From Prochlorococcus sp. AG-355-P07 (GTDB lineage Bacteria > Cyanobacteriota > Cyanobacteriia > PCC-6307 > Cyanobiaceae): a stretch of 64,000 nt of DNA. The notes under the pieces are model-generated. The model was not told the origin of the DNA, ran no database searches, and saw only the letters and a list, made by a program, of their open reading frames with translations. Both the position numbers and the translations under genes were made by a program. Each line of letters starts with the position of its first letter. Position 1 is the first letter of the stretch. This document shows positions 5,442 to 62,767 of the stretch, one piece after another. Where the stretch lies: contig QCEN01000008.1 of NCBI GenBank assembly GCA_003280575.1, forward strand, positions 1-64,000, read 5' to 3'.

Positions 5442-7346
5442 ATGGAAAAAGGCGAAATTCGTATTAATACCGAAAATATTTTCCCAATTATCAAGAAGGC
5501 AGTATATTCTGATCATGAAATCTTTTTAAGAGAACTTGTTAGTAATGGTGTTGACGCAATTAGTAAAAGAAGAATGGCCTCTATGGCAGGTGATTGCGAA
5601 AATACTGAGGAGCCTCAAGTAAAAATAACCATTAACCGTGAAAATAATACATTAACAATTTCCGATAATGGAATTGGAATGAATGATGAAGAAATTAAGA
5701 AATACATAAACCAAGTTGCATTTTCAAGTGCAGAAGAATTTTTAACAAAATATAAAAAAGATAATGATGAATTCATAGGGCATTTTGGACTAGGTTTTTA
5801 TTCAAGTTTCATGGTGGCAAATAGAGTTGATATATTAACTAAATCAGCAATTGGGGAATCAAAGGCTTTCAAATGGTCTTGTGATGGATCGCCAAATTTC
5901 ACGTTAGAGGAATCAGAAAGAGAGACTATTGGTACAGATGTGATACTTCACTTACTTGATGAAGAAAAAGAGTTTATCGAGCCTGAAAGGATTAAATCAC
6001 TAATAAAAAAATATTGTGACTTTATGCCAATAGATGTGTTACTCGAAGGTGAGACAATTAATAAGAAAAATCCTCCATGGAGAAAACAACCTAGCGAATT
6101 AAAAGATGAAGATTATATTGAGTTATATAGATACCTTTATCCTTTCCAGGGAGATCCACTGTTATGGATTCATCTAAATACAGATTATCCGTATGACTTA
6201 CAAGGTATATTGTATTTTCCAAAGTTGTCGGGTAGAGCTGATTGGGAAAAGGGAGAAATAAAACTATTTTGCAATCAAGTATTCGTAAGCGATTCAATTA
6301 AAGAAATAGTACCAAAATACCTTTTACCTCTAAGAGGAGTTATTGACTCCACGGATATTCCTTTAAATGTTAGTAGAAGCGCATTACAAACAGATCGAAA
6401 AGTAAGATCTATATCATCATTTATCTCAAAAAAAATTGCTAATAAATTGAAAGACTTGATAAAAAATTCTCCAGAATTTTATGCAGAAATTTGGGATTCC
6501 ATCTCTGCTTTTATTAAAATTGGTGCTATAGAAGATGAAAAATTTGCTGATTTAGTCGATAACAGTATAATTTTCGAAACAATAATAAATTCAGAGGAAG
6601 ACGTAACTAAAGATATTGAAAATAAATCCCTTATCAAGTCCAATGATAAATATTTCACAACTCTCGCAAATTACAAAGAGCGAAATAAATTAACTGATTC
6701 TAAAAAAATAATTTACTGTTCAGATTTGATTGCGCAATCTAGTGCATTAAATATCTGTTTATCTGATAATAAAGAAGTTATTAAATCAGATCCCTTAATT
6801 GATGCACAATTTCTTCCATGGTTAGAAAGTAAAAATGAAGATTATCAATTCCAAAGAGTTGATTCAGAAATAAATGAAATAGAAGATAAAGAATCAAAAG
6901 AAATTGTAGATAAGGATGGCAAATCAAACACAGATAATCTTAGAGATACAATAGTTAAGGCCCTTAACAATGAGAAAGTAACAGTTAAGGTGCAGTCACT
7001 TTCAAGTAAAGATGCTCCACCAGCGATGATCTTGCTTCCAGAACAAATGAGAAGAATTAATGATATGGGAGCTTACATGGAACAAAAGATACCTGGCTTA
7101 CCTGAATATCATGTACTCTTAATTAATAAAGAACATCCACTTATTGTTGGGCTTAATAAAATTACAGGTAACAAAATAATTATTGATGAAAAAGATCCTA
7201 TTGAGAATCTATTGGCATCAAAAATTGCAAATCATGTTTACGATATGGCTAAGCTTTCCGTTGGTGGCTTAGATCAAGAAGAGATAATTAATTTACAAAA
7301 TAATAATGCCGAATTAATTTCAGAATTACTTAATTCAACAAATTGA
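5442..7346 (+). CDS. htpG: Hsp90-family chaperone HtpG
   Basis: A 634-residue bacterial Hsp90. The GHKL ATPase domain shows the N-box (ELVSNGVDAI near residue 31), the DNGIGM motif and the ATP-lid signature GHFGLGFYSSF. The middle domain carries the conserved NVSRSALQ segment, which supplies the catalytic arginine region. A charged insert before the C-terminal dimerisation domain (about residues 475-500, rich in Glu, Asp and Lys) is typical of family variation. There is no MEEVD tail, as expected for a bacterial homologue. In cyanobacteria HtpG is a heat- and oxidative-stress chaperone. The gene stands after a 116-bp gap, so it likely has its own promoter. Confidence 0.96.
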   Translation: MEKGEIRINTENIFPIIKKAVYSDHEIFLRELVSNGVDAISKRRMASMAGDCENTEEPQVKITINRENNTLTISDNGIGMNDEEIKKYINQVAFSSAEEFLTKYKKDNDEFIGHFGLGFYSSFMVANRVDILTKSAIGESKAFKWSCDGSPNFTLEESERETIGTDVILHLLDEEKEFIEPERIKSLIKKYCDFMPIDVLLEGETINKKNPPWRKQPSELKDEDYIELYRYLYPFQGDPLLWIHLNTDYPYDLQGILYFPKLSGRADWEKGEIKLFCNQVFVSDSIKEIVPKYLLPLRGVIDSTDIPLNVSRSALQTDRKVRSISSFISKKIANKLKDLIKNSPEFYAEIWDSISAFIKIGAIEDEKFADLVDNSIIFETIINSEEDVTKDIENKSLIKSNDKYFTTLANYKERNKLTDSKKIIYCSDLIAQSSALNICLSDNKEVIKSDPLIDAQFLPWLESKNEDYQFQRVDSEINEIEDKESKEIVDKDGKSNTDNLRDTIVKALNNEKVTVKVQSLSSKDAPPAMILLPEQMRRINDMGAYMEQKIPGLPEYHVLLINKEHPLIVGLNKITGNKIIIDEKDPIENLLASKIANHVYDMAKLSVGGLDQEEIINLQNNNAELISELLNSTN

Positions 7347-7384
7347 GCCATGTGTTAGAATTTTTAAAGAAATAATTCAAAAAT

Positions 7385-7621
7385 ATGTCAAGAGTTTGCG
7401 AACTGACCGGTGCAAAAGCTAATAACGGGATGGCAGTGAGTCACTCACATATTCGTACAAAAAAATTGCAACAAGTTAATCTCCAAAAAAGGAGATTATG
7501 GTGGGATGAGGGCAAAAAATGGGTAAATATAAAAATAAGTACCAAAGCCCTAAAGTCTATACAAAAAATAGGTATAGATAAATTTGCTAAATCAAATGGA
7601 GTTGATTTAAAAAAATTCTAA
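7385..7621 (+). CDS. rpmB: 50S ribosomal protein L28
   Basis: A 78-residue basic protein with the L28 signature: [23 protein letters not shown] at the N-terminus (the usual zinc-ribbon form is not complete here) and a Trp-rich central strand ([12 protein letters not shown]). It is a structural protein of the large ribosomal subunit and contacts 23S rRNA near the E site. The length is normal for cyanobacterial L28. It starts 38 bp after htpG. Confidence 0.95.
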
Positions 7622-57981: not shown

Positions 57982-58926
57982 CTACTTATTCAGTCTAGCC
58001 TCAATTAAATTTCTTTCTTGATCAATTAAAAACATCGCATAAGAATTTATTAAATCGAAACTTTCACGAGGTATCGATACATTAAGCATTCTCAAAAAAT
58101 TTGATAATTTTTTATCCTGTAGAGCACTTCCTTTATGTAATAACATCTCTTTTTCTTGATTTGATTTCCACATATTCATATATTCAAACTTCAATGGCTT
58201 TAAGTGCCAAATGTTGTCTAATAAACTCCAAATCTTTACATATGAATTTAAATTTTTTTGTATATTAAATCTATAGAGAGATTCATCAGGGCTCAAATTT
58301 AATGATTTGATATGTTGTTCTTCAATACCATTGGATAAAGGTTCTATTCCCAAAAACCATCCCTCAATAATTAACAAATCAGGATTAACTGATCTCCAAT
58401 GCGATCTATCTCCTAAGCCATTTCTTAAAGATTTATCAAAAACGGGTACATTTAACTCTCCACTTATCTTCCAATTTAGTAATTTGTCATGCATTAACTC
58501 AACTGAATGACTCCCAGGAAAACCTCTAGAAACATTCCAAGGGTTATTCTTAATCGCTAATTTCATCTCATCTGAAGGTAGATAAAAATCGTCAATTGAA
58601 ATAACAGCAATCTTGAAATCTAATTTAAACGATATGGCTTCAAGCCATTTACCTAATGTTGTTTTACCAGTCCCAGGTAGAGCTGAGATTCCAATTATTT
58701 TTCGATCAGAAAAATTTTGTTTAAATTTATATGCCTGAGACAGTAGAGGTAATGCTAAACCCCAAATCCAATCATCATTTACTTTATTACTCCAGAATTG
58801 ATCAATTGAAAGAATTTTTTTTTGATTATTCCAAAAATTGATCCAATCACCCATGGATTCCCAGCCAATATCAATAATTAATTTTTCAAATTTATCAAGA
58901 GGAAAATTAATATCAAAATCTATCAT
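57982..58926 (-). CDS. D-glycerate 3-kinase
   Basis: A 314-residue P-loop kinase of the plant/cyanobacterial GLYK type. The Walker A is SALPGTGKTTLGKWL near residue 84. Nearby blocks ISIDDFYLP, NPWNVSRGFPGSHSVEL, VPVFDKSLRNGLGDRSHW and PDLLIIEGWFLGIEPL are diagnostic. It phosphorylates D-glycerate to 3-phosphoglycerate, the last photorespiratory step, and would also use glycerate released by the neighbouring sugar phosphorylase. It starts 4 bp after the GpgP-type phosphatase gene, indicating one operon. Confidence 0.92.
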   Translation of the reverse strand: MIDFDINFPLDKFEKLIIDIGWESMGDWINFWNNQKKILSIDQFWSNKVNDDWIWGLALPLLSQAYKFKQNFSDRKIIGISALPGTGKTTLGKWLEAISFKLDFKIAVISIDDFYLPSDEMKLAIKNNPWNVSRGFPGSHSVELMHDKLLNWKISGELNVPVFDKSLRNGLGDRSHWRSVNPDLLIIEGWFLGIEPLSNGIEEQHIKSLNLSPDESLYRFNIQKNLNSYVKIWSLLDNIWHLKPLKFEYMNMWKSNQEKEMLLHKGSALQDKKLSNFLRMLNVSIPRESFDLINSYAMFLIDQERNLIEARLNK

Positions 58927-58930
58927 CTGT

Positions 58931-59740
58931 CTAAATAAGTTCTCGCTTAATTATCAATTTATTAATTTCTTTTTTCCAACCATATCCATTTGGTTCAGAA
59001 GCTAACGTAAATTCAAAATCTTTTAATTTATCTAGTAAATTTAAATTAGGTCCATCTATTCCAGGAATAACAATTTTAATATCAGAGTTTAAAAGTAGAG
59101 GTAAATCATTTGGAGAATCGCCCAAACCTACAATTTCAACATTTTGAGTATTTGAATATTCTTTAAGGACATTTATTGCTTTACCTTTATTAGATTTTAC
59201 AGATAATAAGTGACTCATTCTATTCCCCTTGAAAATTTCAACATTGAATTTTTTACAATAGATGTTAATTTTTTCTTCTAAATAACTTGGCGGATTTAGA
59301 AAAGGCATGCTCCAGTGTCGGTCGCGCATTAAGTCCAATGAGTTACCTTCTAAACCTGTTAGCTGAGTTGCTTCTTGATCAGTGAGATTATTAAGAGGAG
59401 TAAGTTTAAAATTAATTTCTTTAGAAATAAAATTTAAGATATCTTCAAGAAATTCGTATTTTATTCCAAGAATAATTTCTCCATTAACTCTTTTAAGAGA
59501 TTCACCATATATTGCCGCACCATTTTCTACAATGTAGGGATCCGTTAAATTTAGTTCCTTCCTAATAACATTTACTTCAGAAGCAGTTTTACTTGTACAA
59601 AGAATTACGGGTATAGATAATTTTTGAAGTTTTTTTATAGTTTCTCTAGCAGGTGACAAATCATAGGAGTGATCCATTAAAGTACCATCTACATCACTTA
59701 CTATCCAAATAGAAGAATTTTCTATCATTTTATAAAGCAC
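58931..59740 (-). CDS. gpgP: HAD phosphatase, glucosyl/mannosyl-3-phosphoglycerate phosphatase type
   Basis: A 269-residue HAD-IIB phosphatase. The nucleophile loop is VSDVDGTLMDHSYDLSPA (Asp near 15), motif II is ILCTSKTASEV, and the acidic motif IV is GLGDSPNDLPLL. The cap domain is of the MPGP type (YIVENGAAIY, WSMPFLNPPSYLEEKI). In this setting it most likely dephosphorylates glucosyl-3-phosphoglycerate, the product of the gpgS gene at 61541, giving glucosylglycerate. The GH13 gene overlaps it by 11 bp. Confidence 0.85.
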   Translation of the reverse strand: MLYKMIENSSIWIVSDVDGTLMDHSYDLSPARETIKKLQKLSIPVILCTSKTASEVNVIRKELNLTDPYIVENGAAIYGESLKRVNGEIILGIKYEFLEDILNFISKEINFKLTPLNNLTDQEATQLTGLEGNSLDLMRDRHWSMPFLNPPSYLEEKINIYCKKFNVEIFKGNRMSHLLSVKSNKGKAINVLKEYSNTQNVEIVGLGDSPNDLPLLLNSDIKIVIPGIDGPNLNLLDKLKDFEFTLASEPNGYGWKKEINKLIIKRELI

Positions 59741-61490
59741 TAAGCCAAATTACTTGAAAAGGATCAAGACTAATGTTTTTGCAATTGTATTTAGTGGATG
59801 TTAAAAAATCTTGGGTATTGACATCATTATCAATTATTTTTGGTAGATCATTATCATTCAATTGATAATTAATTTTATTTTCAGTCATATTATGTATTGC
59901 AAAAACAGACTCAGTACCTTTACTTCTTTTAATTACAACAATATCACTTCTACCATTAGACAAACATTTCATTTCCGAACAGGGGTGAAATTGCTTTAAT
60001 TCTGATCTGACATCCATAGCATTTCGTAGATACTTTAAGTTTTTATTGGCATTAGATTCAGGATTATTTAAAACTGCCAAAAGATTTTCTGATTTAAACT
60101 TTTCCCTATTTAGGTCTCTTCTTTGACCAGTCATAGAAAAACTTTTTATATCATTTTCTGAAGCTAGTAATGCGGGTAAATAAAAGGCAGGAACTCCTTT
60201 CAAAGCCATTACCAATAATTGACTCAAAATAAATCTCTCATATTGAAATCTTTTAGCATCTCTACTGGAGTCTTCCATTGCACTCCACCAACTAATATTC
60301 AATTCATAAGGCTTATCATCACCATTTGATAAACGTCTATGACTTACTAATCCGCCTCTTTTCTCACAATTAATTAATAAATCTTTTATTCTCTGCTCGT
60401 TCATTAAACCCTCAAGAGCTCTTAGCCCAACGCCATCGTGCGATGCAGTAAAATTAAAAAGAGTAGTATTATCAGGTAAGTCTGGCCAATCAAAAATCCA
60501 TGAGTTTAGAATATCAGCTCTTGAAGTAATAATTGCTTCGAGTATAAGAGGAGGCAATGGAAAATTGTATGCCATATGTGCTTCATCATCAGGAATCAGA
60601 TAAGATAGATTTTCCTTCTGAGGAACATTAGTTTCAGTTATTAAAACCCCCTCATCAAGAAGATTATTTAAAAGAACTCTTAAGAGTTTAACAATTGAAT
60701 GTGCTTTGGGTAAATGCAAGCATGTTGTCCCTGATTCCTTCCATATAAAACCTACTGCATCAAGCCTGAACCATTTAATTCCATTAGATAAATAAGTAAT
60801 AATTAAGTTTAAGAACTCAAGAGTCATCTTTGGATTATGCCAATTCAAATCAATTTGATCTGGACCAAAAGTTGTCCAAACTTGTTTAGGACCGTCTTCA
60901 GTATTTATTTGAGAAAACAAGGAGGAACTTCTTGGCCTAACTACATTTGACCAGTCAAGATTTTGCTTCGGTGAAAAAACATTTGATATACCCGGTTCTT
61001 GAGATTTAATAAATTGTTGAACCCATGGGTGAGATGATGAGACATGGTTAAGTACTAAATCAGCCATCAAATCATGATTTTTAGAAATACTTTTGAGATC
61101 ATCCCAACCACCAAATTTCTCTTCTAAGGAATCATAACTTGAGACTGCAAAACCTCCATCACTTGTAGATTTCAAAAAAGGAAGAATATGTACAACTTTA
61201 GAAAGACTGCCAAAATGTTTGCTTAACAACTCACTAAGAGTTATTAATGTTTCCTCGCCATTTTTATAAATACTATCAGCATAAGTTATCAGAACCGAAT
61301 GAGATTCATTCCACCTTTCCTTATCTATTATTTCTTCATAAGCAGATTTCTCTGAGAAATCAACTAAAATCTGTAATAATTGATTTGAAATAAAATTAAT
61401 TTCTTCTGTAGTATTATTTGAATAAATTGTTTTTAACAATTTATCGATCTTTAATCTATCTAATTTTTTCTCTGAATCAATTTGCTTCAC
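59730..61490 (-). CDS. GH13 sugar phosphorylase, probable glucosylglycerate phosphorylase
   Basis: A 586-residue GH13 (alpha-amylase fold) enzyme of the sucrose-phosphorylase-like subfamily. Motifs: DLVLNHVSSSHPW, nucleophile Asp in WFRLDAVGFIW, acid/base Glu in LITETNVPQKENLSYL, and ASHDGVGLRALEG. Sucrose phosphorylase and glucosylglycerate phosphorylase share this subfamily. Its operon with a GpgP-type phosphatase and D-glycerate 3-kinase, next to gpgS, favours glucosylglycerate + Pi giving glucose-1-phosphate + D-glycerate. The start is GTG. The substrate is inferred, not shown. Confidence 0.82.
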   Translation of the reverse strand: MKQIDSEKKLDRLKIDKLLKTIYSNNTTEEINFISNQLLQILVDFSEKSAYEEIIDKERWNESHSVLITYADSIYKNGEETLITLSELLSKHFGSLSKVVHILPFLKSTSDGGFAVSSYDSLEEKFGGWDDLKSISKNHDLMADLVLNHVSSSHPWVQQFIKSQEPGISNVFSPKQNLDWSNVVRPRSSSLFSQINTEDGPKQVWTTFGPDQIDLNWHNPKMTLEFLNLIITYLSNGIKWFRLDAVGFIWKESGTTCLHLPKAHSIVKLLRVLLNNLLDEGVLITETNVPQKENLSYLIPDDEAHMAYNFPLPPLILEAIITSRADILNSWIFDWPDLPDNTTLFNFTASHDGVGLRALEGLMNEQRIKDLLINCEKRGGLVSHRRLSNGDDKPYELNISWWSAMEDSSRDAKRFQYERFILSQLLVMALKGVPAFYLPALLASENDIKSFSMTGQRRDLNREKFKSENLLAVLNNPESNANKNLKYLRNAMDVRSELKQFHPCSEMKCLSNGRSDIVVIKRSKGTESVFAIHNMTENKINYQLNDNDLPKIIDNDVNTQDFLTSTKYNCKNISLDPFQVIWLSAL

Positions 61491-61507
61491 TTTGAAAAAA
61501 TCAACGA

Positions 61508-61519
61508 AGTATTAATACT
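61508..61519. repeat. 12-bp perfect palindrome in the gpgS divergent promoter region
   Basis: AGTATTAATACT is its own reverse complement and is centred in the 50-bp gap between the divergent GH13 (GTG at 61490) and gpgS (ATG at 61541) genes. It also overlaps possible -10 sequences on both strands. It may be an operator for both promoters, but AT-rich palindromes can occur by chance. Confidence 0.4.
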
Positions 61520-61540
61520 ATTCTGCACATCAATTAGAAA

Positions 61541-62767
61541 ATGGACTTTCAACAAGGGTTAATCACAACAATACATGAATATGGAGTTACAAGAAATTTA
61601 CTTAAAGAATTAAACAAAAGTCTTAAAAAAAGATCAACTAGTATTTTAATACCTTGCTTATATGAAGAGTTTGAGCGTCCAGCATTAAAAGATATAAGGG
61701 AAGTTTTAAAAGACCTTACAGGCTTAAATGAATTAGTTATTGCTCTATCTGCAAAAACTGTTGATCAAGTTAAAGCAGCTAAATCATTTTTTCACTCAAT
61801 GCCATTTCCAGTTCACGTTCAATGGACTAATTCTCCCTCTGTAATAGAACTATTAAAAAGCCAAGAAAAAAATGGGTTAGAACTTTTAGGAACTCCAGGT
61901 AAAGGATGGGCTGTCTGGCAAGGCATAGGAGTAGCGACGAGAAAATCAGAAGTTGTTGCTCTTTTTGATGCTGACATAAGAACTTTTACTCCTTTGTATC
62001 CTTCAAGAATGATACTTCCACTTCTGGATGAATCATATGGAATTTCATATGTAAAGGCTTTTTACAGCAGGTTATCCCTAGAGACCAATCAATTGCAAGG
62101 TAGAGCAACAAGACTATTTGTGGGTCCCTTATTGGCAAGTCTTGAGCAGTTAGTAGGAAAAGGTCCCTTTTTACAATATCTTCAATCATTTAGGTATCCT
62201 TTGGCCGGTGAGTTTGCTTTCACTAAAGACCTTGCTATGAATTTACGAATTCCTTGTGACTGGGGTTTAGAGATAGGTTTATTGTCAGAGGTTTATAGAA
62301 ACGTAAGAACCTCCAAAATAGCTCAAGTTGACCTAGGTCTGTTTGATCATAAACATAAGAATATTGGTGATTCATCTAAAGAAGGATTGCAAAAAATGTG
62401 CACAGAAATACTTTCAAGTGTTTTAAGAGGTCTTATGGAGCATCAAGCAGAAACATTAACAAGTACTCAACTAGCAACCCTAGAAGTACTTTATAAAAGA
62501 GTTGGGGAAGATCGGGTAAAACAATTTGGATTAGATTCAGCAGTTAATCAACTTCCATACGATAGGCATGAAGAAGAGCTATCAGTACAAAAATTTGCAA
62601 AACTATTGAGACCTGCTACAGAAGATTACTTAGCTTGTCCTACAACCCAGCAGTTACCAAGTTGGTCAAGAGTTTTATCTTGTGAAAACAAACTGCAAGA
62701 AGATTTGGCAATTGCTGGGTCACAAGATATAAATAAAATTGAAAAAGAATTAATTAAAAACTTCTAA
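61541..62767 (+). CDS. gpgS: Glucosyl-3-phosphoglycerate synthase
   Basis: A 408-residue retaining glycosyltransferase (GT81 type) that transfers glucose from NDP-glucose to 3-phosphoglycerate. Recognisable blocks: [14 protein letters not shown] near residue 37, [17 protein letters not shown], the metal-binding DxD in [10 protein letters not shown], and [10 protein letters not shown]...[11 protein letters not shown]. The product is converted to glucosylglycerate, a charged compatible solute made by marine picocyanobacteria, often more under nitrogen limitation. Its 3' end overlaps the opposing ureC by 4 bp. Confidence 0.93.

Follow-up and report, generated by a model that had tools for sequence, protein, structure and literature searches.

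The window analysed here, a stretch of 64,000 nucleotides from Prochlorococcus sp. AG-355-P07 (a genome of 1.52 Mb in 30 contigs, 96.87% complete), carries four neighbouring genes with a putative role in the metabolism of the osmolyte glucosylglycerate (GGA). Three of them lie on the minus strand, namely glyK (57982-58926), predicted to encode a class III D-glycerate 3-kinase (GLYK), gpgP (58931-59740), for a putative HAD-IIB glucosyl-3-phosphoglycerate phosphatase of the MPGP family, and a GH13_18 gene (59730-61490), whose product contains RLDAVGF, TETN, SHDG and the loop A sequence PYEL and is a predicted glucosylglycerate phosphorylase (GGaP). The fourth, gpgS (61541-62767), is found on the plus strand and probably encodes glucosyl-3-phosphoglycerate synthase. 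The four open reading frames that the initial annotation had grouped together were all recovered at these positions, and so was the spacing it had described: glyK and gpgP are separated by 4 bp, gpgP and the GH13 gene overlap by 11 bp, provided that the GTG start assumed for gpgP is right, and gpgS is divergent. In same-genus relatives, the gpgP match starts at residues 1-5, and in one locus (L041) the gpgP and GH13 genes do not overlap. It is presumed that glyK, gpgP and the GGaP gene form a single transcript, with gpgS read divergently from it. At its 3′ end, gpgS overlaps the convergent ureC gene by 4 bp.

The 50 bp gap between gpgS and the GGaP gene (61491-61540, not assigned to either strand) is the presumed promoter region. 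It contains the palindrome GTATTAATAC, which was exact in 74 of the 81 rows compared, and the GTG start of GGaP that borders it was kept in all 80 relatives examined, the best-matching among 199 named ones. Control of this gap by NtcA was considered and rejected, since the GTAN8TAC box was absent around it from all 81 rows.

Identity of the encoded enzymes

The names of the NCBIfam and Pfam models matched by gpgS, glyK and the GH13 gene were not decisive. The gpgS product scored 401.6 bits against NF040724 (GpgS_Meth, equivalog cut-off 700) and 104.7 bits against NF010496 (cut-off 262), and it aligned with the solved GpgS 7pdo, its DAD standing opposite the DSD of that structure. For gpgP, the score against NF001215 (554.7 bits) exceeded the equivalog cut-off of 488, in a model named for a mannosyl substrate, and the solved relatives were 1xvi and 3ztw. 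The glyK product gave no Pfam match at E 0.001; its best solved relatives were the D-glycerate 3-kinases 7xpc (E 6.1e-18) and 6ckg (E 6.4e-17), with which it shares the conserved P-loop GTGKTT and the SIDDFYL motif, and a single match was found in the genome, indicating a single-copy gene.

The identity of the GH13 protein deserves closer consideration. Its best NCBIfam model was sucrose_gtfA, at 168 bits and under the cut-off of 334.4, and its best PDB relatives were glucosylglycerol and sucrose phosphorylases. The best 80 of 199 named relatives, with 92-97% identity, were all Prochlorococcus or Synechococcaceae records, including MIT 9401 and MIT 9314, which we take to be high-light strains. 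For plasmid-borne relatives, the annotation given is just "sugar phosphorylase". Three presumably catalytic residues, namely Asp in RLDA, Glu in TETN and Asp in HDG, are common to the other GH13_18 rows. Two marks have been published for GGaP, a (T/S)ETN motif located at the strand 5 tip and a loop A Glu replacing Gln (accessible text of PMC7178133), and both are present in the window protein: the alignment places TETN at residues 285-288, and PYEL of loop A is aligned to the YQ of sucrose phosphorylase (SP), giving Glu for Gln. The same pair occurs in E. coli YcjM, annotated as a glucosylglycerate phosphorylase, in a Meiothermus protein (TETN and PYEL) and in a Pseudalkalibacillus protein (TETN and VYEL). 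It was also found in all 30 family loci fetched from the 50 GGaP-positive genomes, one of them the window's own, a count in which the open reading frames of the relatives had been chosen for the presence of ETN and RLD, a potentially circular choice, although each of the 30 loci yielded such a frame. E-I/V-H and YQ were found instead in BaSP and GGoP, in three proteins annotated as gtfA and in an unannotated relative from Pseudoalteromonas.

A maximum-likelihood tree of 33 rows separated 27 TETN/GGaP-type rows, YcjM among them, from six SP/GGoP rows with a support of 100/100. Seven of the 40 rows were omitted from it, all close relatives and one of them from the window's own genome; the tree was midpoint-rooted, with its long branches flagged, and placement inside the GGaP side is unsure. 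Taken together, the two published signatures and the tree support the assignment of the window protein as a glucosylglycerate phosphorylase, a substrate that had previously been proposed from gene context. In the phylogeny that had been suggested as a check on that proposal, the protein groups with YcjM and away from the phosphorylases acting on sucrose and glucosylglycerol, and no clustering with the sucrose phosphorylases was seen.

Two other activities have to be weighed against this assignment. The protein could be a sucrose phosphorylase linking sucrose to glucose-1-phosphate, as its top NCBIfam model and the sucrose phosphorylases among its PDB relatives would suggest; however, that model scored below its cut-off, the SP loop A motif N(L/V)D(I/L/V)YQ is missing from the window protein, which reads GDDKPYEL, and TETN, the loop A Glu and the position on the YcjM side of the 100/100 split all point elsewhere, so that this identity is highly improbable and was rejected on motifs and tree. 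It is also unlikely, to a lesser degree, that the protein is of the XpGP type, a bifunctional GGA phosphorylase also active on sucrose, which would both make GGA from sucrose and degrade it. A GH13_18 enzyme of this kind is known (PMC11009771, in its accessible text), but here dedicated synthesis genes adjoin the GGaP gene, gpgS in all 50 GGaP-positive genomes of the family and gpgP in 49 of them. The assignment as GGaP is shared with the strict enzymes of EC 2.4.1.352 from M. silvanus and S. thermophila and with E. coli YcjM (accessible text of PMC7178133), which the window protein resembles in TETN, the loop A Glu, its side of the tree and the neighbouring gpgS, gpgP and glycerate kinase genes. 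In contrast to these, it belongs to a separate, long-branched cyanobacterial lineage and is known here from its sequence.

A probable synthesis and recycling module and its published counterparts

With these identities, GpgS would join 3-phosphoglycerate to NDP-glucose and GpgP would remove the phosphate to yield GGA. When the solute is in surplus, GGaP would split GGA with phosphate into glucose-1-phosphate and D-glycerate, and GLYK would phosphorylate the D-glycerate to 3-phosphoglycerate. It is very likely that the locus represents a GGA synthesis and recycling module of a known kind, with activities and flux direction predicted from the genes. Such a cycle is already published for Prochlorococcus and is not new; the value of the present locus is that of a well-supported annotation. 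A 2024 study (PMC11631117, accessible text) described a GGA metabolism operon in Prochlorococcus NATL2A, in which recycling leads to glucose-1-phosphate and 3-phosphoglycerate, and reported that in dark-tolerant cells the synthesis transcripts were lower and the recycling transcripts higher, with a putative transporter gene as a neighbour. The window resembles this operon in the co-location of synthesis and recycling genes and in the predicted conversion of GGA to the same two products, and the closed loop proposed in the initial annotation agrees, as a set of predicted activities, with both the NATL2A operon and the conserved core of the cluster described below. Earlier work had predicted GpgS and GpgP in Synechococcus WH8102 (SYNW2436 and SYNW2434) and added SYNW2435, from the GpgP operon, as a possible pathway member (accessible text of PMC2874817), and GGaP genes were found to be frequently accompanied by genes for glycerate kinase, gpgS or gpgP (PMC7178133, likewise).

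The two loci differ in their flanks. According to the accessible text of PMC11631117, the transporter gene lies directly beside the NATL2A operon, whereas gpgS of the window meets the convergent ureC. In one related genome (G100, locus L128, 3999-4772), a TauE/SafE permease gene of 131.5 bits adjoins gpgS, with the 3′ ends of the two genes facing each other; if this permease corresponds to the transporter of that study, it would be convergent with gpgS and not part of its transcript. The sole TauE/SafE match in the window's genome lies on contig C28, other than that of the window.

Conservation of the cluster

Of the same 80 named relatives (the best among 199), 77 carry all four genes, 76 of them at full length and one (L036) with gpgS cut by the contig end, and in all 77 the order and orientation are the same; in the remaining three, the contig stops inside gpgP. 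Such constancy speaks against a chance arrangement. The mean protein identity to the window was 97.2% for gpgS (79 loci, range 96-99%), 95.4% for GGaP (80 loci), 90.0% for gpgP (77 loci) and 80.0% for glyK (77 loci).

A wider survey covered 111 genomes of the same family, drawn evenly and each at least 90% complete. A GGaP match of at least 531 bits was found in 50 of them, the next best genome reaching 118.5 bits. In the comparison of single loci, L140 was left out, since picking the longest of overlapping frames missed the cluster there. The gpgS gene is adjacent and divergent to GGaP in all 50 genomes, and gpgP follows GGaP directly on the same strand in 49, being placed on a different contig in the remaining one (G083). 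By contrast, 23 of the 50 have glyK downstream of gpgP at a distance of up to 150 bp, its match being elsewhere in the other 27. These frequencies indicate a three-gene core of gpgS, GGaP and gpgP that was joined by glyK in one lineage set. Therefore, the conservation expected for a four-gene cluster holds for the core, and for glyK it extends to the 23 genomes alone. In three of the 27 (G012, G043 and G064), which carry GGaP, gpgS and gpgP, the match to a GLYK-like kinase is weak, at 41-50 bits; the contigs of G043 and G064 stop at gpgP, so that a neighbouring glyK may have gone unseen there.

Copies carried by phages were also considered and rejected. In the phage collection, gpgS had no match, and none of the 37 records matching GGaP was named as a cyanophage, their names starting with Listeria (24), Bacteriophage (5), Arthrobacter (4), Enterococcus (3) and Staphylococcus (1). 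The hits H41-H50, named Listeria phage LM 4-11-1 or 4-14-1, are GGaP-like with 34-37% identity over 73-92% coverage, and these hits may be host contigs that were filed under phage names.

The supply of D-glycerate to GLYK

According to the accessible text of PMC2063504, class III glycerate kinase is photorespiratory in plants, and the class was noted in Prochlorococcus, its role in bacteria being called unclear. The glyK product of the window shares homology and motifs with this class. However, its gene is encoded with those of GGA metabolism, in a genome where no GlcD or GOX-type gene is detectable. In the family survey, a GLYK match of at least 80 bits was present in 99 of the 111 genomes, including 52 of the 61 that lack GGaP, which argues that, family-wide, GLYK is a shared enzyme not tied to the osmolyte. 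GlcD (PF02913) was found in 86 genomes. A GOX-type FMN protein (PF01070, with E no higher than 1e-15) occurred in 16, all of them among the 25 genomes without GlcD, so that the two never co-occur in the 111. This mutual exclusion looks like a replacement, after which the window's genus lost both: nine of the 111 genomes gave neither match, comprising the eight sampled from the window's genus and G013, and the window's own genome (96.9% complete) lacked matches both to PF02913 and, at E 1e-15, to PF01070. All eight genomes of the genus carry GGaP with GLYK linked in the operon. More broadly, GLYK is linked in all 21 genomes with GGaP and without GlcD, as against two of the 29 with both, these two belonging to genus g17; most of the 21 come from related genera, so that the counts are not independent and as few as one or two events may lie behind the association.

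In the accessible text of PMC9723591, the path from 2-phosphoglycolate to glyoxylate in MIT9312 is described as incomplete, with a 2PG phosphatase analog, GlcE and GlcF missing; a GOX candidate was reported in none of the high-light genomes that it examined, and candidates for tartronate semialdehyde reductase were confined to Alteromonas and the two Synechococcus strains. A GOX candidate was reported there for NATL2A, in contrast to the window's genome, where none is detectable. Since no GlcD or GOX-type gene is detectable in the window's genus, GGaP is the only D-glycerate source that was detected, and GLYK is most likely kept there for solute recycling. That GLYK acts in this genus as an osmolyte-recycling enzyme, with GGaP as its likeliest main though perhaps not exclusive source of D-glycerate, is a reading to which we attach about an even chance. 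The initial annotation had offered GLYK as either dedicated to solute turnover or shared with it; across the family the shared role prevails, and a dedicated one is the better though tentative reading within the window's genus.

Alternatively, GLYK could be kept mainly for glycerate from another source, be it serine by way of hydroxypyruvate or a remnant of photorespiration that uses a GlcD2-like enzyme. Its position in the operon would then be incidental, and this explanation is of lesser but appreciable probability. The wide occurrence of GLYK in genomes lacking GGaP agrees with it, as does the retention of GLYK in two decayed clusters: in G055 (locus L142), gpgS, gpgP and glyK are intact and GGaP is reduced to a remnant of its last part with stops (6971-7393), and in G014 (locus L143, 4973-6842), glyK stands next to an incomplete gpgS that contains a stop, and neither GGaP nor gpgP gave a match. 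However, G055 has a GOX-type gene and G014 has GlcD, so that a photorespiratory explanation is available for their GLYK, and neither gene is detectable in any of the eight genomes of the window's genus. The decay of these clusters would agree with a GLYK that works for two suppliers and persists while one of them remains, to which G013 is the exception: this genome (95% complete) has a GLYK match of 229 bits (locus L151, G013:C1:1414335-1415180) and no GlcD, GOX-type or GGaP match, which favours another glycerate source, as does the GlcD2-like candidate reported for MIT9312 in the accessible text of PMC9723591. A second 2-hydroxyacid dehydrogenase of 318 aa (PF02826) in the sister genomes G062 and G085 points in the same direction; in the window's genome, one full-length member of this family was found, a SerA-like frame of 528 aa. 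SerA-like proteins may carry out the hydroxypyruvate reduction step, and the PF02826 counts were therefore not used as proof either way.

For the recycling role of GLYK, a succession of events may be outlined, to which we give slightly less than an even chance. GLYK would have been drawn into the GGA operon in a setting like that of genus g17, where GlcD is present; GlcD would then have been replaced by a GOX-type protein in related genera, and the latter lost in the window's genus, leaving GLYK kept only for osmolyte recycling. In the single open-access library searched, no report was found that ties the GLYK of high-light Prochlorococcus to solute turnover without a glycolate route. If a very abundant phototroph keeps GLYK without the steps that would feed it from glycolate, finding GLYK in a genome is no evidence that a C2 cycle operates, and metabolic models in which glycolate supplies its glycerate would be mistaken.

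The evolutionary rates of the four genes bear on the same question. The median dN/dS against the window was 0.035 for gpgS, 0.077 for the GH13 gene, 0.137 for gpgP and 0.175 for glyK, and all four genes are under purifying selection, glyK the least. Being the fastest evolving of the four, glyK fits a weak demand, which counts against the recycling role proposed for GLYK.
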